64,000 nt of DNA from Cryobacterium sp. M96 (GTDB lineage Bacteria > Actinomycetota > Actinomycetes > Actinomycetales > Microbacteriaceae): NCBI RefSeq assembly GCF_002929845.1, contig NZ_PJJS01000051.1:1-64000 (forward strand). Reading direction: 5' to 3'. The translations under genes and the position numbers were made by a program. The notes under the pieces were generated by a model. That model was not told the origin of the DNA. It did no database searches and saw only the letters and a program-made list of their open reading frames with translations. Below are positions 3,211 through 41,391 of the stretch, piece by piece. Positions within the stretch are counted from its first letter, which is position 1. Each line of letters starts with the position of its first letter.

Positions 3211-5438
3211 GAAACGCTCACCAGGTACGCGCCCGACTCGTTCGTGTCGGCGACGTCGCGGTAGACCCGGGTCAGCGTCTCAGCCATGGCCTGGATCGTG
3301 AAGGAACGCGACACCATTTCCCCGGCCCGGTCCGCGTACTCCGGTCCGAGAGGGCCGGCAGCCAACTCGAGTGCAGCGATGATCCCGCCCGCCAGGGCCG
3401 TTTGGTTGCCGGTGTCGACGAGGAAACCCGTCACTGCGTGCTCCACATAGGTGGCCGGGCCGCCGGAATTCGGGGCGACGACGGTGAGCCCGGTCGCCAT
3501 GGCCTCAAGCAGGGCGATGCCGAATTCTTCCTTCATGCTCGCGCAGACATACGCCCCATTGGGGGCCGCCAGTCCGGGCCGGCCGTACCGGGCCGCGGCC
3601 AGCCAGTGCGCCACGGTGTCGTTGGTGCGGTGCCCGGCGAGCAGTAGGCCCTGGTCGGCCGCATTGGCGAGGTCGACGACCGCGGCCATCTGGTCCAGCT
3701 GGCTTTTCTCGTCGAGGGAGGGAGAATTCAGGTCCCCGCCGAGGATGAGCAGGTTGCAGCGGGCGCGCAGGTTGGCATCCGCAGCCCACGCCTGAACCAG
3801 GGCAGCCATGCCCTTGACGCGGTGCAGGCGTCCGACGGTGACGGCGAGCGGAAGCCCGCGCCGGCTCGGCGGGAGGGTGGTGAGCAGGTCGTCCAGTTCG
3901 GCTAGCGCCGCTGCGCCCGCCGCGCCCGCCGCGCTGGTCACGCCGGTCGCCCCGGTCGCGTGCGCGGCGGGCGGGTCGGCCGCGAGTCGGGCATCCGCCA
4001 GGGCACGCTCGATCACGGCGAGGTCGATGCCCTCCGCGATCACGGAGTGGCGTTCCGGATGCTGCCGGATATCGATTCCCACAAGGTCGCGCATGTCACG
4101 CCGCAGCTCGGGCCTCGGGAAGAGAACAGTGTGCGCGGCATCCGCGGCCAGCCGCTGAACGAGCCGGGCCCGGAACCAGAAGTGCTCGGTCTCGTCGACC
4201 GTGCCGAAGTTCGCCCGGGTGAGCACCCCGGAACTGTCGAGGGAGTGGATGACGCTGTGCGGGTCGGGGGCCACCGTGAACACGATCGGAATGTCGAGCT
4301 CGCGGGCGACGGTGGAGGCAGCCAGCGTGCCGATGTCGGCCATTCGCAGGTGGATCGCGTCGACGGTGCCGGCGGCGCGCAGAATGCGACGGATGCCGCG
4401 CTGCGTCGCAATCCGCCGCGGCCAGGCATCGACCGAGGCGACGGGTTCGCCCAGGAAGGGCACGGTCGCGAAGGCGTGCTCCGCGAGGGAAGACCCGACC
4501 TCGGACAGAGAGGTGAGCGCGCCGGCGAAGCTGCCGCGGGAGAGGGTGAGCACCCGTTCCACGGAGCCGCCGCGCTCACTGCCGCCGCTGCCGTTGCCGC
4601 CGGAGACGAGCGCGTCGCCCAGGCGCACGAGCAGCGTGGCGATGCCGCCGTTATCGCCGGCTCCCACCTGGCTGAGTTCGCGGTCGATGTCGGCGTGCAG
4701 GAAGAGTTGGGCCACCGTCAGCCCCCGGCTCCACGGCGGGCGCGGGTAGGCCGGCACGGTCAAGTCGATCAGGGCGAGCCGGGCCACGTCGGCAAGCACG
4801 CCGCTGCCCTGCGACAGGTCGCTCACGATACGGATGTTGGCCTCGTTCGGACCGAGGTCGCCGATGGCCGCGATCGCCGCCGCACGCACCGCGTTCGGCT
4901 CGGAGCCGTCGACTGCGACCCGGCGCAGCAGACGTTCGGGGATGCGCCCGGCGATGAGACCCATCGTTTCGACCAGGCGGGCGCGGGCGCCGCACTCATG
5001 CACGCCGATCAGGGTGCCCTCGAGGGCGAGCGCCACATGCACCGGCACCGACGAGCTCCACTGCTCCAGCGTGCGCTGGGCGATCATGCCGGAGAAGCCG
5101 CCGTCGACCACCATGCTCAGCAGTCCGGAGATCGCCTCGAACCGGGGCAGCCGGGCGCCGAACGCCCAGGCCGTGTGTTCGCGGATGAAGAGGGAGTCGT
5201 GGGTGAGCAGCGACACGAGCACGTCATCCGCGGACTCGTCGAACACCTGGCCGAGCGAGTGAATGGCTGCGATCGCGGTCAGCTGGTCGCCAGGGTCGGT
5301 CGCCGCCTGCGCGAGCAGGCGCACGGCGCGGATGCCGCCGTCCCGGCTCGCTGCGATGGTCAGGTCGTCGGCGCAGCGAATGCCGTCCAGGATTGACCGG
5401 GTCTGCCGCATCGTGTCCAGCGTCGTGTGAGTGCCCAC
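3207..5438 (-). CDS. HEAT-repeat/GT4 fusion glycosyltransferase
   Basis: About 743 residues. The N-terminal roughly 240 residues are helical repeats resembling HEAT/PBS-lyase repeats (LTAIAAIHSLGQVF, VRAAAIAAIGDLGP). The remainder is a GT4 glycosyltransferase with LPLAVTVGRLHRVKGM, LLILGGDLN and the donor-site E-x7-E motif in EEFGIALLEAMATG followed by SGGPATYVE. I chose the GTG at 5438 because a GAGGGGG box lies 5 nt upstream; the ATG at 5411 is an alternative. The frame stays open far upstream only because it is antisense to the oxidoreductase gene. The helical N-terminus may hold a protein partner or the acceptor polymer. Function unknown beyond glycosyl transfer. Confidence 0.8.
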   Translation of the reverse strand: MGTHTTLDTMRQTRSILDGIRCADDLTIAASRDGGIRAVRLLAQAATDPGDQLTAIAAIHSLGQVFDESADDVLVSLLTHDSLFIREHTAWAFGARLPRFEAISGLLSMVVDGGFSGMIAQRTLEQWSSSVPVHVALALEGTLIGVHECGARARLVETMGLIAGRIPERLLRRVAVDGSEPNAVRAAAIAAIGDLGPNEANIRIVSDLSQGSGVLADVARLALIDLTVPAYPRPPWSRGLTVAQLFLHADIDRELSQVGAGDNGGIATLLVRLGDALVSGGNGSGGSERGGSVERVLTLSRGSFAGALTSLSEVGSSLAEHAFATVPFLGEPVASVDAWPRRIATQRGIRRILRAAGTVDAIHLRMADIGTLAASTVARELDIPIVFTVAPDPHSVIHSLDSSGVLTRANFGTVDETEHFWFRARLVQRLAADAAHTVLFPRPELRRDMRDLVGIDIRQHPERHSVIAEGIDLAVIERALADARLAADPPAAHATGATGVTSAAGAAGAAALAELDDLLTTLPPSRRGLPLAVTVGRLHRVKGMAALVQAWAADANLRARCNLLILGGDLNSPSLDEKSQLDQMAAVVDLANAADQGLLLAGHRTNDTVAHWLAAARYGRPGLAAPNGAYVCASMKEEFGIALLEAMATGLTVVAPNSGGPATYVEHAVTGFLVDTGNQTALAGGIIAALELAAGPLGPEYADRAGEMVSRSFTIQAMAETLTRVYRDVADTNESGAYLVSVS

Positions 5439-31686: not shown

Positions 31687-32847
31687 ATGACCGACACGCA
31701 CGTGCGCCCCATCCGGGTGCTGCACCACGACACCGCCGAACGGCCCTTCATCGTCATCTGGGAGGTGACGCGCGCCTGTCAACTGGTCTGCACCCACTGC
31801 CGGGCCGACGCCATCCGCACTCGCAATCCGTTCGAGCTGAGCACGGACCAGGGTCGCAAATTGTTGGACGACCTCGCCGCCTTCGGCACACCGCGCCCGC
31901 TGGTCGTGCTCACCGGCGGGGACCCGTTCGAGCGCCCCGACCTGCCGGAGCTCGTCGCCCACGGTACCAGCCTCGGCCTGAGCATGGCCCTCTCCCCCTC
32001 GGTCACCCCACGCCTCACCCGTGAGGTCCTGGTCGAGCTCCACGACGCCGGGGCCAAGGCGGTCTCGCTCTCGCTGGACGGCGCCTCAGCGGCCACCCAC
32101 GACGCCTTCCGCGGTGTCGACGGCGTCTTCGACGACACCATGATCGCCGCCCGAATGGTGCGCGAGGTCGGCTACCGGCTGCAGATCAACACGACCGTCA
32201 CCCGCGACACCGTGCACGAGCTGCCCGGCATCCTGAAGACCGTCCTCGATCTCGGCACCACCCTGTGGAGTGTCTTCTTCCTCGTGCCCACCGGCCGCGG
32301 CAAGCTCCTGAACGCTCTGACCGCGGCCGAGGAGGAGGAGGTTCTGCACTGGCTGCACGACGTCTCCGACCTGGTCGCCATCAAGACCACCGAGGCACCC
32401 CACTACCGACGCATCGCGCTTCAGCGGGCCGGCGTGGACGACGGGGTTGACCTCGACACCGCGTTCCCAGTCGGCCCACTGAGAGCCTCGCTGCGGGAGG
32501 CCACGGAGCGGTTGCTCACCGGTGACGAGCCGAGGCGGCGGCGTCCGCGGGCCCCCCTCGACGTCAATTCCGGGCGCGGGTTCGCCTTCGTCGACCATGT
32601 CGGTCTCGTTTACCCCAGCGGGTTCCTGCCCGTGTCCGTGGGGTCGGTGCACAAGCAGCCCTTCTCCGAGATCTACCGGGAGGCGCAGCTGCTCCAGGAG
32701 CTGCGCACCCCGGATCTCTTCGGCGGCCGGTGTGGTCACTGCGAATTTCGCACGGTCTGCGGCGGCTCCCGCTCGCACGCCTACGCGGTGACCGGGGACC
32801 CGCTCGCCGAGGACCCCAGCTGCGGCTACCAGCCCAGCACCGACTGA
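31687..32847 (+). CDS. Radical SAM/SPASM protein, TIGR04053-like
   Basis: A 386-residue radical SAM enzyme with C31-x3-C35-x2-C38 in WEVTRACQLVCTHCRADA and the SAM-contact LTGGDPFERPDL. A SPASM-like C-terminus carries more Cys: GGRCGHCEFRTVCGGSRSHA and DPSCGY. It fits the TIGR04053 group, relatives of the NirJ/AhbC heme-modifying enzymes. A role in heme maturation for the respiratory enzymes nearby is possible but not shown. It is transcribed from the shared promoter with the SufR-like regulator and ends at a strong palindromic terminator. Confidence 0.78.
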   Translation: MTDTHVRPIRVLHHDTAERPFIVIWEVTRACQLVCTHCRADAIRTRNPFELSTDQGRKLLDDLAAFGTPRPLVVLTGGDPFERPDLPELVAHGTSLGLSMALSPSVTPRLTREVLVELHDAGAKAVSLSLDGASAATHDAFRGVDGVFDDTMIAARMVREVGYRLQINTTVTRDTVHELPGILKTVLDLGTTLWSVFFLVPTGRGKLLNALTAAEEEEVLHWLHDVSDLVAIKTTEAPHYRRIALQRAGVDDGVDLDTAFPVGPLRASLREATERLLTGDEPRRRRPRAPLDVNSGRGFAFVDHVGLVYPSGFLPVSVGSVHKQPFSEIYREAQLLQELRTPDLFGGRCGHCEFRTVCGGSRSHAYAVTGDPLAEDPSCGYQPSTD

Positions 32848-32880: not shown

Positions 32881-32936
32881 CACCGCACGCAGAAGCGCCC
32901 GGCCGATTACTCGGCCGGGCGCTTCTGCGTGCGGTG
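32881..32936. terminator. Perfect 26-bp-stem bidirectional terminator
   Basis: Arms 32881-32906 and 32911-32936 are exact reverse complements with a TTAC loop. It lies between the convergent stops of the radical SAM gene (32847) and the small membrane protein gene (32949). A stem this long and GC-rich would stop transcription from both sides; T-tracts are absent. Confidence 0.85.
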
Positions 32937-32948
32937 GTGCGCGGCAGG

Positions 32949-33197
32949 TCAGTCCAGGTGGTGCCCGCCCTTGACCCAGCGCAGGGCGCCAAGAATACCG
33001 ATGGCCACGCCGAACATCCCGACGATCATGCCCACGAAGAGCCAGACGAAGAGCGGTTCCAGGCCGCCGACCGTCTGGTCGACTCCGACGATCGTGCCGC
33101 CGAGGAACCCGGCGATGGGTGCGAAGATGCCGGCGAAGGCTCCGATCAGCATCAGACGGATGCTGAGGGCGCGGTCGCGTGAAACGATGTCGGCCAT
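32949..33197 (-). CDS. Small two-helix membrane protein in norB operon
   Basis: An 82-residue protein with two hydrophobic segments, about 15-40 (LMLIGAFAGIFAPIAGFLGG) and 48-72 (PLFVWLFVGMIVGMFGVAIG), a charged start and a His-containing tail GGHHLD. I do not recognise a family. Its ATG overlaps the last base of the SPFH gene stop (TAATG), which makes it the fourth member of the coupled norB unit and the last before the terminator. Confidence 0.7.
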   Translation of the reverse strand: MADIVSRDRALSIRLMLIGAFAGIFAPIAGFLGGTIVGVDQTVGGLEPLFVWLFVGMIVGMFGVAIGILGALRWVKGGHHLD

Positions 33198-34099
33198 TAG
33201 GAAGAAACCTCCGTTGTCTGTGCTGCGGCAGCCGCAACGGCGGTCGCAACGGCGGCGGCGAAGGCCGCGGCGGCCCCCGCCGGGTCCGGCAGGGGAACCG
33301 TGTCCGCACCGGGGGGCGCGGCGCTCGGCTGGGCCACCTGCTGGGTGACCTTGCCGTTGAGGAACGGACCGAGAATGTCCATCGGAAGCGGGAAGACCAC
33401 AGTCGATTTCTGGTCGGCGCCCAGCTCGAGCAGGGTCTGCAGGTAGCGCAGCTGAAGCGACGCGGGATTGCGGCTCAGGATTTCCGCCGCCTGGCCCAGC
33501 TCCTCCGACGCCTGCAGTTCACCGTGGGCATTGATGATCTTCGCCCGGCGGTCCCGCTCGGCTTCGGCTTCACGGGCCATGGCACGCTGCATCGCCTGCG
33601 GAATCTCGACATCCTTGATTTCGACGACCTTCACCTGCACGCCCCAGGGTTCGGTTTGCGCATTGATGTTGCGGGCGAGGTCTTCGTTCAGGTCGGCCCG
33701 GTGGGCGAGCAGGGTGTCGAGGTCGGCGCGGCCCACGACCGAGCGCAGCGTTGTTTGCGACATCTGGGAGGTGGCGATGGCGTGGTTCTCGACCGCCATC
33801 ACCGAACGGACCGGGTCGGTGACCTGGAATAGGACGACGGCGTTGACCCGGGCCGGAACGTTGTCCTTGGTGATGACGTCCTGCGGCGGGATCGTGAGGG
33901 TCACGATCCGGAGGTCGACCCGCACCATCTTGTCCAGTCCGGGGAACACCATCTGCACACCCGGGTCCCGCACCGGGCCCAGCCGGCCGAATCGGAACGC
34001 CACGCCGCGCTCGTATTCCTGCAGCACCTTGAAGGAAGCTGCCAGCCAGACGAGCAGCAGCGCCACCACGATCAGGGCCGCGATCTGCCAGGCCATCAC
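33197..34099 (-). CDS. SPFH/band-7 protein (slipin-like)
   Basis: A 300-residue membrane-anchored SPFH protein. One N-terminal helix (IAALIVVALLLVWLAASF) precedes the band-7 core, with YERGVAFRFGRL, DVITKDNVPARVNAVVLFQV, AMAREAEAERDRRAKIINAHGE and the C-terminal oligomerisation region. The tail is Pro/Ala-rich. Slipins form ring-like membrane scaffolds and are often encoded with NfeD-type proteins; none is here. The start is GTG 34099 or ATG 34096, both overlapping the stop of the upstream Cys-rich gene. Its coupling to norB suggests it scaffolds or protects the NO reductase, which is inference. Confidence 0.88.
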   Translation of the reverse strand: MMAWQIAALIVVALLLVWLAASFKVLQEYERGVAFRFGRLGPVRDPGVQMVFPGLDKMVRVDLRIVTLTIPPQDVITKDNVPARVNAVVLFQVTDPVRSVMAVENHAIATSQMSQTTLRSVVGRADLDTLLAHRADLNEDLARNINAQTEPWGVQVKVVEIKDVEIPQAMQRAMAREAEAERDRRAKIINAHGELQASEELGQAAEILSRNPASLQLRYLQTLLELGADQKSTVVFPLPMDILGPFLNGKVTQQVAQPSAAPPGADTVPLPDPAGAAAAFAAAVATAVAAAAAQTTEVSS

Positions 34100-34914
34100 G
34101 AGTTGCCCCTCCGGCTCCAGCCCACGGCGGGGCCGGAACGACCCGGGTCGGCCTCCGTCTCCAGTTCAGCCCAACGGGCTGAGAATGAGGCGCTCACTGT
34201 GTTTCCTTTCATCGTTTCCGGATCGGCGTCGGTTTGCTCCGACGCCCGGGCGCTCGCGTACGGTTCGATTTGAACCGGCCGCGGGCCCGTTTTTCTGATG
34301 CTGCCGTAGCCGCTGCGCCGCTGCGCCTCGACCGCCGCCGTGGCGGCGCGGGCCGCGACGCTTTCGTCGAGCCCTACGACCTTGAGATGCTCGGGAAAGC
34401 GAGCGGGCGTGCGACGCAGGTGCGACCACAACGGCCAACTGCCGGCGGCGATGACGGCCGAGGCTGACCCCAGGATCAGCAATTCCACGCCCGTGCGGTT
34501 CTGGAACATGGACGCCAGCGGCCAGATGAGCCCGAGCACGACGACGGAGCAGGCGATCCCGCGATGGAACCGTTCTGCCTCCGAACTGGGCCAGGGGTCG
34601 ATGTTTCGCGCGAGCTGCCGGCCCGCATCCGAGGTGGTGCAGGTGTCCTTGACCGGGCAGGGGTTGCAGACCGTGGGGCTGGCCTGGTATCGCGTCACCC
34701 GGTTATCCGGATCGAAGGAGATCGGCCAGAGCCACTGGTCCTCCTGGCACTTCCAGGCGTCGTGGTTTTCGTGATACTCGAACCCGCTCGAACTCATGGC
34801 GGTGGTTTTCGCCCCGGTGCGTCTCGCCAGGAGGTCAAGCACGTGTGCCACGGCCAGCAGGAAGCCGCCGTAGACAAGCGCGAACCAGACCTCCGGATTG
34901 ATGGAGGCCATCAC
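34096..34914 (-). CDS. Cys-rich membrane protein of unknown function, norB-linked
   Basis: A 272-residue protein I cannot assign to a named family. A first membrane helix (about 9-29) leads to a soluble domain with H49, H51, C56, C83, C86 and C92: WKCQEDQWLWP then TVCNPCPVKDTC, that is C-x26-C-x2-C-x5-C, a likely metal or Fe-S site. Two more helices follow (about 119-137 and 143-160), then a polar, probably cytoplasmic tail. The start, GTG 34914 or ATG 34911, overlaps the norB stop, and its own stop overlaps the SPFH gene. An electron-transfer or assembly role for NorB is possible. Confidence 0.7.
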   Translation of the reverse strand: MMASINPEVWFALVYGGFLLAVAHVLDLLARRTGAKTTAMSSSGFEYHENHDAWKCQEDQWLWPISFDPDNRVTRYQASPTVCNPCPVKDTCTTSDAGRQLARNIDPWPSSEAERFHRGIACSVVVLGLIWPLASMFQNRTGVELLILGSASAVIAAGSWPLWSHLRRTPARFPEHLKVVGLDESVAARAATAAVEAQRRSGYGSIRKTGPRPVQIEPYASARASEQTDADPETMKGNTVSASFSARWAELETEADPGRSGPAVGWSRRGNS

Positions 34915-37319
34915 ACGCCGCCGCCCGGGCGGTCCCCACCGAGCTCTCCGGTGCCGGTGGAGCGGTAGTCCGAGGAATATCCGGATGTCGGCTCCGCGCC
35001 GCCGGTGACCGTCGCGCCGGTGGGGACCGCCTCGACGAACAAAGCCTCCATCGGCACGTCGTGGGTGGTTGCCTTGATGCGGTAGCGAACCCCGAGCCAG
35101 GTGATCCAGACGAACGGCATCACGCCTCCGACGATGAAGACGATGTCACCGGGCATCCGCAGCCATTCGAGAACGGCGTTGCCGGGCTCGTTGATGAAGT
35201 TGAGGCTGCGGGCTTCGAAGTAACCGTCGTTGATGGAGTGCCAGAGCTGAATGACGCCGAGCGGCAGCAGCGTTGCGAACGTCATCCAGGCCAGGCCGAT
35301 GTTGAGGCACCAGAACGAGATCTTGGCGAGCTTGTCCGGCCAGCGCTCGGCCGGGATCAGGTAGCGCAGGGCGAAGAGCGACAGACCGACGCCCATCATT
35401 CCGTACACGCCCATCATCGCCGCGTGGGCGTGGTTGGCCGTCAGCGCGGTACCGATCTCGTAGTACGAGACGATCGGCAGGTTGATCAGGAATCCGAAGA
35501 CGCCGGCACCCAGGAAGTTCCAGAAGCCGACCGCGACAAGGAACATCACGGCCCAGCGGTGCGGGAACGGAGCCGAACTGCGCGACTCCTGCCGGGCACC
35601 GAGTTGGAGGAAGCTCCAGGCCTCGATCGTCAGGAAGGTCAACGGGATGACTTCCAGGGCGGAGAAGAAGGCTCCCAGCGCCATGTGCTCGACGGGGGTT
35701 CCGGAGAAGTACAGGTGGTGCATGGTGCCGAGGATGCCACCGGCGGAATACAGGATGACGTCGAGCAGGATGATCTGCATCGCGATCTTGCGGTGCACAA
35801 CCCCGAGCATGACGAAGATGTAGGCCACCATCACGGTCGTGAACAGTTCCAGGAAGTCCTCAACCCAGAGGTGCACCACCCAGAAGCGCCAGAACTCGGC
35901 GACGCTCAGGTGAACCTCGGTGCCGGCGAGCATTCCGACGGCGTAGAACGCGGGGATCGCGAGACCGGCGTAGAAGAAGAGCCACGGCAGGTTGAAGCGG
36001 TGCTCAGACTTCAGACGCGCCCGGATGCCGCGGTAGATGATCGCGATCCAGAGGAAGAGTCCGACGACGAGCATGCCCTGCCACACCTTGGGCAGGTCGA
36101 TGTACTCCCACTGCATGTCCCAGAACGGCGAGCCCTTCGCGGCCTCGACGCCGAAGATGCTCAAGGCTTCACCCACGAACGATCCGACGATGACCAGGGC
36201 GAGGGCGCCGAGCAAGCCGTAGGCCAACCAGTGCTGACGTTTGGGTTCACGCCCGGAGATATACGGGGCGAGGAAGATGCCTGCGGCCAGGAACGAAGTG
36301 GCCGTCCACAACAGCGAGAGCTGCACATGCCAGGTTCGGGCGAGGTTGAACGGCAGCAGCTGAGCCAGGTCGACCCCGAAGAAGCTCGACAGGTCGACCC
36401 GGTAGTGCTCGATGGCGGCACCTAGGAAGGCCTGGGCCAGGAACATCAAAGCCACCACGAAGAAGAACCAGGCCGTGGCGGTCTGGGCGGGTGTCACCGC
36501 CACCTCCCCCGGCTGTCGGAAGGACAGTGCCGGGGTTTCTTCCCCGTGCTGCCAGCCCATCCTCTTGCTCCACCGGCCGTAGAGGCCGAAGAGGGCGCCG
36601 AGGGCGACCATCAGGGCCACGAGCGAGAGGCCGCTCCACACGATGATGTCGGCGGTCGGAACGTTATCCACGAGCGGCTCGGCCGGCCAGTTGTTCGTGT
36701 ACGAGTAGTTGTGACCGGGCCGCTCAGCAGAGGCTGCCCAGGACGTCCAGGCGAAGAAGGCGGTCAGGTCGTGGATGTCCGCCGAGTCCGTGATGGCATT
36801 CGGGATCAGACCGTATTGGGTGGTCGGGGAACCGAAGAAATCGGCGTAGTGCTGCTTGAGCGTGTCGAAGGCCTCGATCTGCAGATCGGTGAATTCGAGG
36901 TCGCCGGTGGCCTTGTCGTAGCGGTTGGTCCGCATCATCTCGACGAGGGCACCCTGTGGGTCCTGCACACCGGACGCGGTCAGGGCCTCGAGCACCTCGG
37001 TCGAGGAGCGCCGCAGGTAGTCGGCCGTATAGTCCGGTCCGAGGTAGCCGCCGTGACCCAGGATCGAGCCATACTGCTGCAGGCCGCGCCGCACGAAGGT
37101 CTGCTGGCCCGCGGTGATGTCGGCCGTCGTGAAGACAACCTCACCCTGCGAGTCGACGACCTGCTTGGGCTGGGGCATCGAGTCCGTATAGGTCCTCAAG
37201 GCCAGGAAGCCCATCACGGCGAAACCGAAGACCATTACCAGGGCTACGCCCTGCAACCATCCTTTGGAAACCATCAACTCCGATCGCAGTTTTCCTGCAC
37301 CGGCTCTCAATCGGACCAC
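34911..37319 (-). CDS. norB: Quinol-dependent nitric oxide reductase (qNorB)
   Basis: An 802-residue heme-copper-oxidase-superfamily protein that reduces two NO to N2O using quinol. The N-terminal extension with a cytochrome-c-like but heme-less domain (ADITAGQQTFVRRGLQQYGSI) marks the quinol form. Metal ligands lie in FWVVHLWVEDFLELFTTV, GTMHHLYFSGTP and ALTANHAHAAMMGVYG. About 14 membrane segments. The GTG at 37319 has a GGAAAGGGG box 6 nt upstream; an ATG at 37274 is the alternative. The C-terminal tail is Gly/Thr-rich. It leads a four-gene unit with start-stop overlaps at each junction. Confidence 0.95.
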   Translation of the reverse strand: MVRLRAGAGKLRSELMVSKGWLQGVALVMVFGFAVMGFLALRTYTDSMPQPKQVVDSQGEVVFTTADITAGQQTFVRRGLQQYGSILGHGGYLGPDYTADYLRRSSTEVLEALTASGVQDPQGALVEMMRTNRYDKATGDLEFTDLQIEAFDTLKQHYADFFGSPTTQYGLIPNAITDSADIHDLTAFFAWTSWAASAERPGHNYSYTNNWPAEPLVDNVPTADIIVWSGLSLVALMVALGALFGLYGRWSKRMGWQHGEETPALSFRQPGEVAVTPAQTATAWFFFVVALMFLAQAFLGAAIEHYRVDLSSFFGVDLAQLLPFNLARTWHVQLSLLWTATSFLAAGIFLAPYISGREPKRQHWLAYGLLGALALVIVGSFVGEALSIFGVEAAKGSPFWDMQWEYIDLPKVWQGMLVVGLFLWIAIIYRGIRARLKSEHRFNLPWLFFYAGLAIPAFYAVGMLAGTEVHLSVAEFWRFWVVHLWVEDFLELFTTVMVAYIFVMLGVVHRKIAMQIILLDVILYSAGGILGTMHHLYFSGTPVEHMALGAFFSALEVIPLTFLTIEAWSFLQLGARQESRSSAPFPHRWAVMFLVAVGFWNFLGAGVFGFLINLPIVSYYEIGTALTANHAHAAMMGVYGMMGVGLSLFALRYLIPAERWPDKLAKISFWCLNIGLAWMTFATLLPLGVIQLWHSINDGYFEARSLNFINEPGNAVLEWLRMPGDIVFIVGGVMPFVWITWLGVRYRIKATTHDVPMEALFVEAVPTGATVTGGAEPTSGYSSDYRSTGTGELGGDRPGGGV

Positions 37320-37615: not shown

Positions 37616-40222
37616 TCACGGACTGACCAGGACGACGCCGCGGGCGCCTTTCTCGGCATCAGACATGATGTGGCTGACGAAGGGGTAGCTGCCGGCCTCC
37701 GGGAAGGTCAACTCGACGAAGCCACCCTGGGCCACGGCCAGGTCGAGCACCTGGGAGCCGCCCGTGCCGGTGCTGCCGCCATCACGCAGCAGGTAGTCGC
37801 CCTCCTTGAAAACGGTGTCGAACTGGCCGCCCACGACGTGGAAGGAGCTGCCCACGTTGGGGCCGGCGTCCAGCACCCAGATGCGCACCTTCTCGCCAGC
37901 CTTCGCCGTCAGCGGGCGGGCTCCGTACTGGTTGGCGATGCCGTTGAAGACCACCAGGTCGGGGAACTGCGCCGCCACCTTGTCGGCGTCGGCCTCCCCG
38001 CCCTGCGCACCGAGGTAGAGCTCGGACTGCACCAGGACGTATTCCCGATCGACCGCTGAAAGCCCGGGTGGATCAATGATCACGGCGCCGAACATGCCGT
38101 TCGCCATGTGCACCGACATGGGCATCGTGCCGCAGTGGTAGAGCCAGATCCCCGAGCGGGTCGCGGTGAAACGATAGGTCAGGCTCTCCCCCGGATTGAT
38201 GCTGCGCATGGGCCGATCGGGTGCGAGGGCACCCGCGTGGAAGTCGATGGAGTGCTCGATCGACCCGTCGTTGACGAAGGTGATGTCGAAGACGTCGCCG
38301 ACCTTGCCATGCAGGGTCGGGCCGGGGGCTGTGCCGTTGAACGTCCACAGGGTCTGGGTGACGCCGGGAGACACCTCGGTCTCCACGTCTTCCACCCGCA
38401 TGGTCAACGTGTGCACGGTCTCCGCCTCCGCCGCCCCCAGCGCCGGGTCGCGGGCGACGAAATCGGCGTCGGGCTCACGCATCAAATCGAGATCGTCTGC
38501 CGCGCTGGACGCGCCGCCGGCGGGCGCAGAGCCGTGGTCCATCGCTGGGGAGTCGTCGCCGGACTGAGGCTCGGCTCCGACGGCCACGACCGTGAGCACC
38601 ATGCCCAGGACCTTGTGGCCGGCGATGGAGCACCAGCCCTCGACGTCGGCGCCCACGATGCCGGCGTCGACCTGCCGGCTGGTGCCGGGAGCGACGGAAC
38701 CGGAGACCACGCCGGTGGCGAGCACGAGGTTGTGCACCATCTCGTCGTCGTTGGTCAGGTTGATCACCAGGGTGTCGCCGACGGGCACCTCGATGGTGTC
38801 CGGGCTGAAGCGCGTGTTCTTCATGACGACCTCGACCGTGGTCGTGTGGCCGGTCGACACCCTGTCGGCGGATGCCCCGCCGCTCGCGATTCCGGCGGCG
38901 GCCGGGTCCATGGCGATCCCCAGGGATACGGCCAGAAGCAGGGCGCCGACGGCCGTGATGGTCGCACCTGTGCGGCGCGACGGGGCCGCGGCAATCCGCG
39001 GGGCGGGCGGGGCCGTCGCATCCGTCGCCTGGCGGAGCCGGCGGTTCTGCCGCAGCGCCCGCGGCATCAGGACCAGGAAGGAGGCGAGCGTGCCGACGAC
39101 GAGCAGCGAGACCGTGACCTTCACCAGGCTGGGCACCGGCATCAGATAGAGGACCAGGCCGACGTTGACGACGATGACCCGGAACAGGGCACCACGATCG
39201 AGCAGGGCGGCCGTGGCCTTCGAGACCGAGGGTCCGCCGCCGAGCACGACCGGCACCAGGTAGCTGAGGGCTCCGAGCAGGATCTGCGCGGCGAAACCGA
39301 CCGCGAACACGGGCACGAGCTGCCCGAGCCGGTCGGTCGCGGCTACCCAGCTCGGTGCGAACGTCACGATCAGGCCGAACCCGAGCACGCAGGCGAAGAA
39401 CCAGGTGAGGGCGGCACCGATGCTCCAACCGGCGAAGGTGACGGCCGGGGACTGCCTGGCCAGGCGCAGGGCCTCAACCAGCACCAGGCCGAGGCTGACC
39501 AGGTAGAGCAGAACACCCGCGGCGGCGACCAGGCGCTGGTCGATCAGCAGGCCGATCCCGAGCACCGCGAGGCCGGCCAGGAACAGAGGCAGGGTTCCGC
39601 GGGCCGAGGCGCGCGTCGTCTGCACCCGGGCGTGCAGCACAGTCGGCCAGAGCAGGGCCACCGTGCTAATCACGGTCAGGCCGACCCAGCCGAGCAGGTT
39701 GAACCCGATATGGGCGATGTACATCCGCTCCGCGGACTCACCATCGATATCGGTTCGGGCCATCAGCACGCCCAGGGTCACACCGATGGCCAACGCGATT
39801 CCGGCCGCAATGTAGTAGCGCACGAGCGGTGCGAACCGTCCCGGCAGCGCTCCCCGCGACTGCCGGAACAGCAGCAGGGCGTGGGCGAGGGCATTCGTGC
39901 CGACCAGGATGCCGCCGGCAAGCACGACCGGCCACCAGCCGCCGACGATGCCGGTGATCACGAGCACCGCTCCGAGGGTGTGCGCGCCGAGCCTCGCCCC
40001 GAGCGAGGCGCGGCCGCCGGGGGCCGGATGCCGGAGCAGGGTGTCGGCGAAGTGCTGGCTCCAGACCAGGATCGCGGTGCTCACGGCGCCCAGGAACAGG
40101 AGGTGCACCATGAGCCACGGCGCGACAGGGATGAAGCGGTGGATGAGTACGGCGATGAGAGTGAGAAGGAGCCACGCCGGAGTCAGAAGCCCGGTAATGA
40201 GGTGCCACAGTCGACGGTTCAT
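37616..40222 (-). CDS. nirK: Membrane-fused copper nitrite reductase (NirK type)
   Basis: An 868-residue chimera. Residues 1-about 420 hold roughly ten membrane helices (HLLFLGAVSTAILVWSQHFA). A cupredoxin domain follows at about 460-555 (MKNTRFSPDTIEVPVGDTLV). A two-domain nitrite-reductase module fills about 615-868. Its type 1 copper ligands are read in LYHCGTMPMSVHMANGMFG (His, Cys, His, Met near 698-715). The catalytic Asp and type 2 His ligands are in EHSIDFHAG, SFHVVGG and VSHIMSD. So it should reduce nitrite to NO. The ATG at 40222 overlaps the upstream gene stop. Such fusions occur in actinobacteria; the membrane part may take electrons from quinol. Confidence 0.9.
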   Translation of the reverse strand: MNRRLWHLITGLLTPAWLLLTLIAVLIHRFIPVAPWLMVHLLFLGAVSTAILVWSQHFADTLLRHPAPGGRASLGARLGAHTLGAVLVITGIVGGWWPVVLAGGILVGTNALAHALLLFRQSRGALPGRFAPLVRYYIAAGIALAIGVTLGVLMARTDIDGESAERMYIAHIGFNLLGWVGLTVISTVALLWPTVLHARVQTTRASARGTLPLFLAGLAVLGIGLLIDQRLVAAAGVLLYLVSLGLVLVEALRLARQSPAVTFAGWSIGAALTWFFACVLGFGLIVTFAPSWVAATDRLGQLVPVFAVGFAAQILLGALSYLVPVVLGGGPSVSKATAALLDRGALFRVIVVNVGLVLYLMPVPSLVKVTVSLLVVGTLASFLVLMPRALRQNRRLRQATDATAPPAPRIAAAPSRRTGATITAVGALLLAVSLGIAMDPAAAGIASGGASADRVSTGHTTTVEVVMKNTRFSPDTIEVPVGDTLVINLTNDDEMVHNLVLATGVVSGSVAPGTSRQVDAGIVGADVEGWCSIAGHKVLGMVLTVVAVGAEPQSGDDSPAMDHGSAPAGGASSAADDLDLMREPDADFVARDPALGAAEAETVHTLTMRVEDVETEVSPGVTQTLWTFNGTAPGPTLHGKVGDVFDITFVNDGSIEHSIDFHAGALAPDRPMRSINPGESLTYRFTATRSGIWLYHCGTMPMSVHMANGMFGAVIIDPPGLSAVDREYVLVQSELYLGAQGGEADADKVAAQFPDLVVFNGIANQYGARPLTAKAGEKVRIWVLDAGPNVGSSFHVVGGQFDTVFKEGDYLLRDGGSTGTGGSQVLDLAVAQGGFVELTFPEAGSYPFVSHIMSDAEKGARGVVLVSP

Positions 40223-41391
40223 GGTGTGACTTTCAGTTTGGTGTTTGGCTGGCGCCGCGGCACGCCGCGCACCACCGAGATCACGGCCAGCAGCACGAAC
40301 AGGAGCACGGCCACGATGTTGGCCACGCCGCCCCACTGCACCAGTGCCGGCAGGTCGCGCGCGTCACCGAGCAGGATGCGCACCAGCAGGGAGACATGCA
40401 GCAGCAGCACCGGCAGGTAGAGCACCGGCCGGTACGGCAGCGGCCGGCGCAGCACGGCCGGCAGGATGGTCGGGGCGTGCGCCATGATCATCGACATCAC
40501 GAACCCGAGGAAGACGGCGTGCAGCACGGCGTCATAGCCGGGACCGGAGAAGCTCGGGCCGACGATGATCCAGCTGGCGCCCACCACGAGCAGCCAGCCG
40601 TAGCCGGCCAGCAGGCACGCGGCCATGTACCGGGGCAGGCCGGTGCTGCGGATGAGCCGGGTCGCCACGTCGTGCCGGAACAGCCAGGCGACGAGACCGA
40701 GCAGCCCGAGCCCGAGAACCGGATAGCCTACCCCGGGCCAGACGAGAGCGACGACCGTGCCGAGGGTCAGGAACAGGCCGGCGGCCAGCATCCGCATTTC
40801 GGCCCGGTGGTCGACGGAGGGCGAGATGCGCGCGAGTTCGAGCCGCTCACCGGCGATCGTGAGCACCAGGTAGAGCGTCATCGCGGGCACCAGGACAGGC
40901 ACGGGCACGCCGCCGAGCCACAGCACGGTTGCCGTGAGACCGAGCAGGGCACCGAGTGCCTGCACCGCGGCGGACGTCGACGGCTGCCGGAGCCAGATCG
41001 CCCGGTAGATGGCCAGCAACACGGCCGACCCGGCCACGAGGGCAAGCTGGCCGACCACCAGGGGAAGCGGCGATACGAGTGACAGGCCGCCGAGGCCCAG
41101 CAGCCCCGGCGACAGGTAGGCCCAGTTCCGGCGCACGGCGACGGCCCGTTCGAGCACGACGACGGTGCCCACGAACCCGAAGACCATCAGGGGTCCGTGC
41201 ACATCCGCCAGGCGTGCGGTCACGACCGGCGCCGGGAAACCCAACAGGAGCAGCGCACCGTCGAGCCCGGCCAGCAGAGAGAGGCCGCCGAGCAGCAGAA
41301 ACGCCAGTCGCCCGTTGCCGTGCACGGTGGTGTCGAATCTCGGGAGACTAGGCGGCGCGGGTGAAGCGGATGCGCCAGGCGTCCGGGCCAC
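40219..41391 (-). CDS. NnrS-like polytopic membrane protein
   Basis: A 390-residue protein with about 12 membrane helices. HGPLMVFGFVGTVVVLERAV and HAVFLGFVMSMIMAHAPTIL are the paired His-containing segments seen in NnrS-type proteins, which help cells withstand nitrosative stress and copper/heme nitrosylation. Overall identity to classical NnrS looks low. The GTG start at 41391 overlaps the DUF2249 gene by 44 bp and has only a weak SD sequence. The stop overlaps the nirK start. It shares a resemblance with the membrane half of the NirK fusion. Confidence 0.75.
   Translation of the reverse strand: MARTPGASASPAPPSLPRFDTTVHGNGRLAFLLLGGLSLLAGLDGALLLLGFPAPVVTARLADVHGPLMVFGFVGTVVVLERAVAVRRNWAYLSPGLLGLGGLSLVSPLPLVVGQLALVAGSAVLLAIYRAIWLRQPSTSAAVQALGALLGLTATVLWLGGVPVPVLVPAMTLYLVLTIAGERLELARISPSVDHRAEMRMLAAGLFLTLGTVVALVWPGVGYPVLGLGLLGLVAWLFRHDVATRLIRSTGLPRYMAACLLAGYGWLLVVGASWIIVGPSFSGPGYDAVLHAVFLGFVMSMIMAHAPTILPAVLRRPLPYRPVLYLPVLLLHVSLLVRILLGDARDLPALVQWGGVANIVAVLLFVLLAVISVVRGVPRRQPNTKLKVTP

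Follow-up and report, generated by a model that had tools for sequence, protein, structure and literature searches.

A quinol-type nitric oxide reductase gene with a candidate set of accessory membrane-protein genes in actinobacteria

A gene set linked to norB

The first 64,000 nt of contig NZ_PJJS01000051.1 of Cryobacterium sp. M96 (the window; the source genome comprises 3.3 Mb in 54 contigs) contain norB, predicted to encode a quinol-type nitric oxide (NO) reductase (qNOR), directly followed by three coupled genes. Their products are a three-helix membrane protein with a predicted metal-binding domain of four cysteines (the Cys protein), a protein of the SPFH superfamily that resembles stomatin in sequence, and a small two-helix membrane protein. 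The link of the Cys protein to NorB is well supported, and the unit represents, as far as our searches reach, an undescribed accessory set beside a known enzyme. The reading we prefer, at a probability of about one half, is that the four products form one membrane assembly around qNOR, consisting of NorB, an accessory subunit that bears a cytosolic metal domain, and a stomatin-like ring. Literature searches that paired NO reductase with SPFH or band 7 yielded no publication, and wider searches on SPFH proteins and on qNOR and actinobacteria named no such unit among the matches listed.

The distribution of the Cys protein was determined in 394 genomes drawn evenly from the class, with matches taken at E ≤ 0.001. 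The NorB domain was present in 18 of the 394 genomes and Cys-protein matches likewise in 18. All 15 strong Cys-protein matches lay in NorB genomes, that is in 15 of the 18 (hypergeometric 1.6e-24, uncorrected for kinship), consistent with the shared job with qNOR that the initial annotation of the window had proposed. Weak matches were rejected in G414 (two matches, both IS1182 transposases), in G231 (three internal stops, C-terminal stretch only) and in G520 (helices only).

Gene order was surveyed with a profile from an alignment of 15 relatives (A1), which found 233 relatives in contigs representing one genome per species. The locus counts refer to the best 80 of these 233 and therefore lean towards close relatives; some of the 80 are genomes also present in the 394-genome draw (e.g. 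L046 and G360:C10). A search of this kind for joint occurrence had been suggested earlier, and it placed norB upstream of the Cys protein in 79 of the 80 loci, the exception (L077) having 259 bases of contig before the match, and an SPFH gene downstream in 80/80. With start codons chosen by script, 71 of 79 measured norB/Cys junctions overlapped, 65 by exactly 4 or 1 nt, as did 78 of 79 measured Cys/SPFH junctions, 55 by 4 or 1 nt; a few large overlaps (e.g. -232, -608, -503 and -236) stem from overlong or broken frames. The small two-helix protein, sought in fetched loci only, had tblastn relatives in 48/80 loci, and a small frame with two hydrophobic stretches lay downstream of SPFH in 71/80.

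Within the window all four frames lie on the minus strand, at the coordinates at which they had first been placed, and the stop and start overlaps described at each junction can be read directly from the sequence as 4, 4 and 1 nt. The norB/Cys and Cys/SPFH junctions both read GTGA, a 4-nt overlap that would shrink to 1 nt with the alternative in-frame ATG one codon on, and the junction between SPFH and the 82-aa gene is TAATG. A single case of overlap is little proof, because short overlaps are common in compact genomes.

The unit is carried by Microbacteriaceae, Micrococcaceae, Mycobacteriaceae, Nocardioidaceae, Propionibacteriaceae, Micromonosporaceae, Streptosporangiaceae and others, and its closest named relative among the matches listed is that of Cryobacterium sinapicolor (NorB 98% identical). 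Its distribution is sporadic, which makes the link with NorB more telling: among 150 genomes drawn from the family of the window the Cys protein was found in the source genome only and was absent from two congeners, and some twenty other Cryobacterium records carry it.

A second alignment (A2) was built without 21 of the 80 loci, most of which were omitted as near-copies (L025, L026, L028, L029, L032, L033, L034, L037, L041, L059, L062, L063, L064, L069, L073, L079, L083, L086, L090, L091 and L095); L073 was omitted for an in-frame stop, and L069, L083, L086 and L095 for odd length or broken frames. In 296 genomes the A2 profile found the full-length protein in 12, all of them NorB genomes, and gave four other matches, in G414 and G237. 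The two G237 frames hit the IS1182 transposase profile (E 1e-70 and 1e-51) without reaching its cut-off. Across the 296 genomes the matches thus fell into two contexts only, IS1182 transposases (G414 and G237) and, in 12 genomes, the NorB-linked protein. Among the individual loci, the norB and SPFH matches of Tessaracoccus coleopterorum (L095) are split into several pieces and a Mycobacterium relative (L073) has a stop inside the Cys frame, either of which may reflect sequencing errors or decay. The unit is also carried by a contig filed as an Acidobacteria metagenome-assembled genome (L085), which could be explained by misbinning of an actinobacterial contig or by transfer.

Identity of the four proteins

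The norB product is assigned by its domains to the quinol-type NO reductases. A cytochrome-c-like N-terminal domain (PF22085, E 3.4e-54, residues 51-213) is fused to a COX1-like core (PF00115, E 4.6e-52, residues 282-725), both over cut-off. Among solved proteins in the Protein Data Bank (PDB) the best sequence matches (E about 1e-150 to 1e-139) are to NO reductase chains 746-852 aa long, which we take to be qNOR, and the match is weaker (E 1e-31 to 1e-27) to the shorter NorB chains of 456-465 aa, presumably of cytochrome c-dependent NO reductase (cNOR). The protein therefore shares with qNOR (NorB/NorZ) both domains and, as its best solved relatives, long single-chain enzymes. It differs in its gene context: known qNOR is described as expressed from a single gene with no additional genes needed (PMC9976466), whereas norB of the window has up to three dedicated neighbours.

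The SPFH protein contains a Band_7 domain (PF01145, E 3.1e-38, residues 25-194) and a visibly hydrophobic N-terminus. It is classed as stomatin-like on the strength of its PDB matches, with stomatin best (E 2.6e-60), followed by QmcA (8.9e-31) and HflK (4.5e-15). Together with the hydrophobic stretches of the 82-aa protein, these domains bear out the identities first given to norB, the SPFH gene and the two-helix protein. SPFH proteins are widespread, at least one being present in all 16 genomes searched, and the SPFH and small proteins might be general membrane proteins carried along with norB, with no contact between them. We regard this as quite improbable, since SPFH copies linked to NorB resemble one another more closely (those of four other genomes are 61-77% identical to the window copy) than do the remaining copies (47-49% or about 35%, with one unlinked relative, in G867, at 56%), and since the order is retained in 80/80 loci from many families. 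Homologues found mostly away from any NO reductase had been named as the observation that would speak against a common role. The Cys protein gives no such picture (15/15 strong matches in NorB genomes); that of SPFH is mixed, considering the 61-77% identity of linked copies, the 56% unlinked relative and the presence of SPFH in 16/16 genomes.

The Cys protein is built of one helix, a four-Cys domain of about 60 residues, two further helices and a variable tail, a layout common to the AlphaFold models of two orthologues. The cysteines of the motif C-x26-C-x2-C-x5-C (C56, C83, C86 and C92) are invariant in 60/60 close and 15/15 wider relatives. H48 and H51 (272-aa numbering) are conserved in 59/60 and 60/60 of the close set and, unlike the four cysteines, in 11/15 and 13/15 of the wider set. 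The Cys pattern and three helices that the initial annotation described were retained; its histidines, numbered 49 and 51, are really H48 and H51. Basic residues trail helices 1 and 3, with a mean K+R of 3.5 against a D+E of 0.82 after helix 1, and are nearly lacking at the N-terminus. By the positive-inside rule, under which basic residues mark the cytosolic side, the four-Cys domain would face the cytosol. The domain is predicted to bind metal, with a [4Fe-4S] cluster and zinc about evenly likely. In both models the first two cysteines are separated by a beta hairpin, in a region of low confidence; such a hairpin would speak against the fold of the WhiB-like (Wbl) proteins and would suit a zinc-ribbon-like site. 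A PDB sequence search with the Cys protein P0001 gave no match. With A1 it returned three matches, two to LIM kinase 2 sequences (E 0.14) and one to an antiporter subunit (E 2), which covered the helical part and were judged to be chance.

Table 1. Features of the norB unit, with window coordinates, strand and basis of assignment
Feature	Position	Strand	Basis
norB, quinol-type nitric oxide reductase (predicted), 802 aa	34911..37319	-	Pfam and PDB sequence matches
Cys protein, three-helix membrane protein with four-Cys domain, 272 aa	34096..34914	-	relatives; alignments A1 and A2
four-Cys domain, residues 45-104 (C56, C83, C86, C92)	34603..34782	-	IS1182 profile, hhalign, Cys invariance
Cys protein, membrane helix 1, about residues 7-28	34831..34896	-	model helix 7-41; K+R excess after the helix
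Cys protein, membrane helices 2 and 3, residues 112-135 and 142-158	34441..34581	-	models; retained in Cys-less relatives
SPFH protein, stomatin-like by sequence, 300 aa	33197..34099	-	Band_7 PF01145; stomatin nearest solved relative
small two-helix membrane protein, 82 aa	32949..33197	-	two hydrophobic stretches; tblastn relatives
perfect inverted repeat, 26-nt arms, 4-nt loop	32881..32936	no strand	between convergent genes

Nested composition of NorB loci

In 31 loci picked by the NorB domain alone (18 from the 394-genome draw, plus 8 and 5 new ones), the three-helix scaffold followed NorB in 27 (one weakly), the Cys domain was present in 21 and a linked SPFH gene in 16. The four genes described for the window are coupled, as had been claimed, and the composition of the unit is nested rather than fixed. 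A linked SPFH gene occurred in 16 of the 21 loci with the Cys domain and in 0 of the 10 without (Fisher 7e-5, uncorrected for kinship). The helices were found without the Cys domain in six loci (L210, L211, L215, L216, L218 and L220) and, outside this count, on a Streptomyces plasmid (L002). A helix-only profile, from which the Cys-domain columns had been removed, matched L002, L211, L215, L216, L218 and L220 at E ≤ 2.1e-9 and L210 weakly (E 0.0038); in a search of 1562 open frames of 20 loci it found nothing in L209, L223, L224 and L225. Both states occur within genus g115, where L219 and L228 have the Cys domain and SPFH, and L218 and L220 have neither and retain the helices and the stretch WPHSEAGRFHRG.

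Some NorB loci merit separate description. G699 (L215 and L222) and G738 (L216 and L221) carry two NorB loci each, neither with linked SPFH; in both genomes one locus encodes a Cys-less three-helix protein and the other the Cys-domain form. In L209 (G230) the NorB-like frame has 354 aa, is 36% identical over the match and ends 3 nt before a frame that by eye is transposase-like, and it is probably a broken NorB gene. A second NorB-domain match in G576 is weak (E 9.7e-4, below cut-off).

The accessory genes could alternatively form an assembly set: the Cys protein would carry iron or an Fe-S cluster and, together with the SPFH and two-helix proteins, help to insert cofactors into NorB in place of NorQ and NorD. 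The coupling of the genes directly after norB and the position of the Cys-rich domain on the predicted cytosolic side would suit such a role, and cNOR is reported to require NorQ and NorD for FeB insertion (PMC9976466). The norE/norF and norQ/norD genes of cNOR adjoin norB as the present genes do; the trio of the window, however, shows no AAA+ or VWA domain in Pfam, in which it differs from norQ/norD. Since 4/31 NorB loci have no such set and 6/31 have the helices without the Cys domain, we consider an assembly role unlikely; FeB insertion of the NorQ/NorD kind is made less likely by the report that qNOR needs no additional genes (PMC9976466).

Kinship of the four-Cys domain

The Cys protein had been thought to fit no family, a view that its Cys domain contradicts. 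The IS1182 transposase profile NF033551 matches this domain in 15/15 members (best E 1e-11), and in the window protein it aligns residues 35-114 with profile positions 348-426 of 488 (E 3.1e-9). A comparison of the domain with 13 IS1182 inserts by hhalign gave a probability of 97 and a score of 55.9, against at most 20.8 for 60 column shuffles. Because the 13 inserts were selected by cysteine pattern, the unselected NF033551 match is the better evidence. The two share the pattern F...CP...CxxCPxxxxCT...GR, and judged by profile and cysteine pattern the domain is clearly related to the Cys insert of IS1182 transposases. The Cys protein was rejected as an IS1182 transposase: the score of the window protein is 36.3 bits, below the curated cut-off of 270 bits, the match covers the Cys-insert positions only, and the protein, whose domain lies between membrane helices, has no other transposase part. 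The insert itself looks optional in the IS1182 family, because transposases of the source genome (G000:C29:41830-43059) and of G334 (G334:C1) match the profile on both sides of it and not across.

As IS1182 proteins are DNA enzymes, this kinship would allow the Cys domain to be a captured piece of transposase, one that has kept its nucleic-acid binding and anchors the locus or transcript of NorB at the membrane. We hold this to be very improbable, given the missing remainder of the transposase, the location of the domain between membrane helices and its conservation with NorB; the transposases could equally have acquired a metal fold.

A fainter resemblance leads to the Wbl proteins. The Pfam family Whib matches the Cys protein of the window at 13.9 bits (E 0.084; cut-off 23.6 bits not reached), and weak matches were found in 8/15 members (best E 0.019). 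In hhalign a comparison of the domain with 26 Wbl sequences scored 33, and the highest score among 60 column shuffles was 18.6; the Wbl sequences had been selected by cysteine pattern and the alignment spans only about 30 columns around CxxCPVxxxC. The GVWGG motif of Wbl proteins is absent from A1 and from the consensus of A2. Membership of the Wbl family was rejected for the missing GVWGG and the score below the Whib cut-off, and the resemblance was retained as an analogy for the cluster. As the Cys protein lies below both the IS1182 and the Whib cut-offs, we would place it in no family. A lone Cys followed by C-x2-C-x5-C is found in other [4Fe-4S] proteins as well. WhiB1 is reported to be an NO-responsive helix bundle whose [4Fe-4S] cluster is held by Cys 9, 37, 40 and 46 (PMC5741622). 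The spacing C-x2-C-x5-C and the CxxCPVxxxC core are shared with the Wbl proteins; the Cys protein differs in being a membrane protein with a predicted beta hairpin instead of helices and without GVWGG.

The closeness of C-x26-C-x2-C-x5-C to the WhiB1 ligand pattern (PMC5741622), together with the weak Whib matches and the hhalign score, suggests an NO or redox sensor, in which NO would destroy a [4Fe-4S] cluster as in Wbl proteins and so alter the handling of NorB by the SPFH protein or by a protease such as FtsH. Considering that the profile match is confined to some 30 columns, that a beta hairpin is modelled where WhiB1 is reported as a helix bundle (PMC5741622), that GVWGG is absent and that zinc is equally possible, a sensor is a doubtful candidate.

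A proposed membrane assembly around qNOR

In the assembly that we prefer, the three-helix protein would be an accessory subunit that stays with NorB, being encoded right after norB even without the Cys domain. Because the helices travel with NorB when the Cys domain is missing, the simplest reading is that it is they that contact NorB. The four-Cys domain would hold its metal, [4Fe-4S] or Zn, on the cytosolic side. On the cytosolic face the stomatin-like protein may build a dome or ring that corrals NorB and its subunit in a membrane patch, and the metal domain would lie beneath this dome. Since linked SPFH is seen only with the Cys domain, this domain would probably dock or tune the SPFH assembly. 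The two-helix protein may be a further part. We infer the physical contact, the ring around NorB and any effect on NO reduction from these patterns of presence and kinship.

Precedents exist for parts of this arrangement. Stomatin reportedly assembles into a dome in which membrane proteins are corralled (PMC12407830), and loss of HflKC is reported to lower respiration in Escherichia coli (PMC12005517). The SPFH protein of the window resembles stomatin in sequence, for which such corralled cargo is reported (PMC12407830), and its closest known counterparts are the stomatin and SPFH domes, HflK-HflC among them; it differs in that its gene is coupled to that of an NO reductase, a pairing absent from the publications listed by our searches. 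A more elaborate form, an NO reductase compartment in which the stomatin-like dome encloses NorB and the transposase-related cytosolic domain, lying beneath it with an NO-reactive Fe-S cluster, opens, closes or dismantles the dome in response to NO, is speculative and distinctly unlikely.

Several observations weigh against the proposed assembly. The Cys domain occurs without linked SPFH in 5/21 loci (L213, L221, L222, L226 and L227), so the ring would not be obligatory unless a distant SPFH protein serves, such as the 56% relative in G867. All three components are missing from 4/31 NorB loci (L209, broken; L223, distant; L224 and L225), and qNOR itself is reported to work without additional genes (PMC9976466). 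The NorB tree contains only two supported independent pairs that differ in the Cys domain; SPFH follows the Cys domain in one pair and is the same in the other, and the dependence of SPFH on the Cys domain is therefore not significant. This tree took 39 of the 80 loci, and L212 and L231, present in a first tree, were omitted from the second for their long branches. For the tree test seven Cys-less loci were given their scaffold label manually, and this label was then checked with the helix-only profile. The tree requires a minimum of 4 changes in the Cys domain and of 5 in SPFH, and the order of the deepest actinobacterial branches is not resolved by it. On the structural side, model confidence in the Cys domain is low, with block means of about 45-75 (P0001) and 45-58 (second orthologue), and Foldseek found no PDB match at E ≤ 0.001 for either Cys-protein model, a result that says little because the domain is modelled at low confidence.

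Neighbouring features

The palindrome that had been called a perfect terminator of the unit is indeed perfect (arms 32881-32906 and 32911-32936, beginning 12 nt past the last gene). It has no T-run, the terminator scan did not list it, and it lies between the unit and a convergent radical-SAM gene that ends at 32847. Because of the missing T-run and the convergent flanking genes, the palindrome is at most a shared terminator. The radical-SAM gene (31687-32847, +) belongs to TIGR04053 (514.6 bits, over cut-off), and a stretch of less than 9 kb on a Halobaculum plasmid (L231) contains a TIGR04053 gene together with nirK and a NorB-like gene. Upstream of norB on the same strand lies a frame of 906 aa (37616-40336, -) with a cupredoxin match. 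Its C-terminal end matches copper nitrite reductase TIGR02376 (E 2e-47, 162 bits, below the cut-off of 296), and its long N-terminal portion, for which Pfam gave no match, looks hydrophobic.

In a plasmid collection tblastn at E ≤ 0.01 found no relative of the Cys protein. The Cys-less three-helix relative that accompanies NorB on the Streptomyces plasmid is too diverged for this search. Near norB this plasmid also encodes a group III truncated haemoglobin and an Rrf2 regulator (4373-4855 and 3389-3922), and a similar haemoglobin/Rrf2 pair adjoins norB on a Tardibacter plasmid (L230).

Significance

qNOR is regarded as a one-gene enzyme. A partner set spread across many actinobacterial families would, if true, mean that an enzyme converting NO to N2O has subunits that have not been considered. 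The functions of bacterial SPFH rings are described as mostly unclear (PMC12005517); such rings would gain a defined respiratory cargo and a genetic handle, and a single domain would be common to a transposase family and a respiratory membrane protein.

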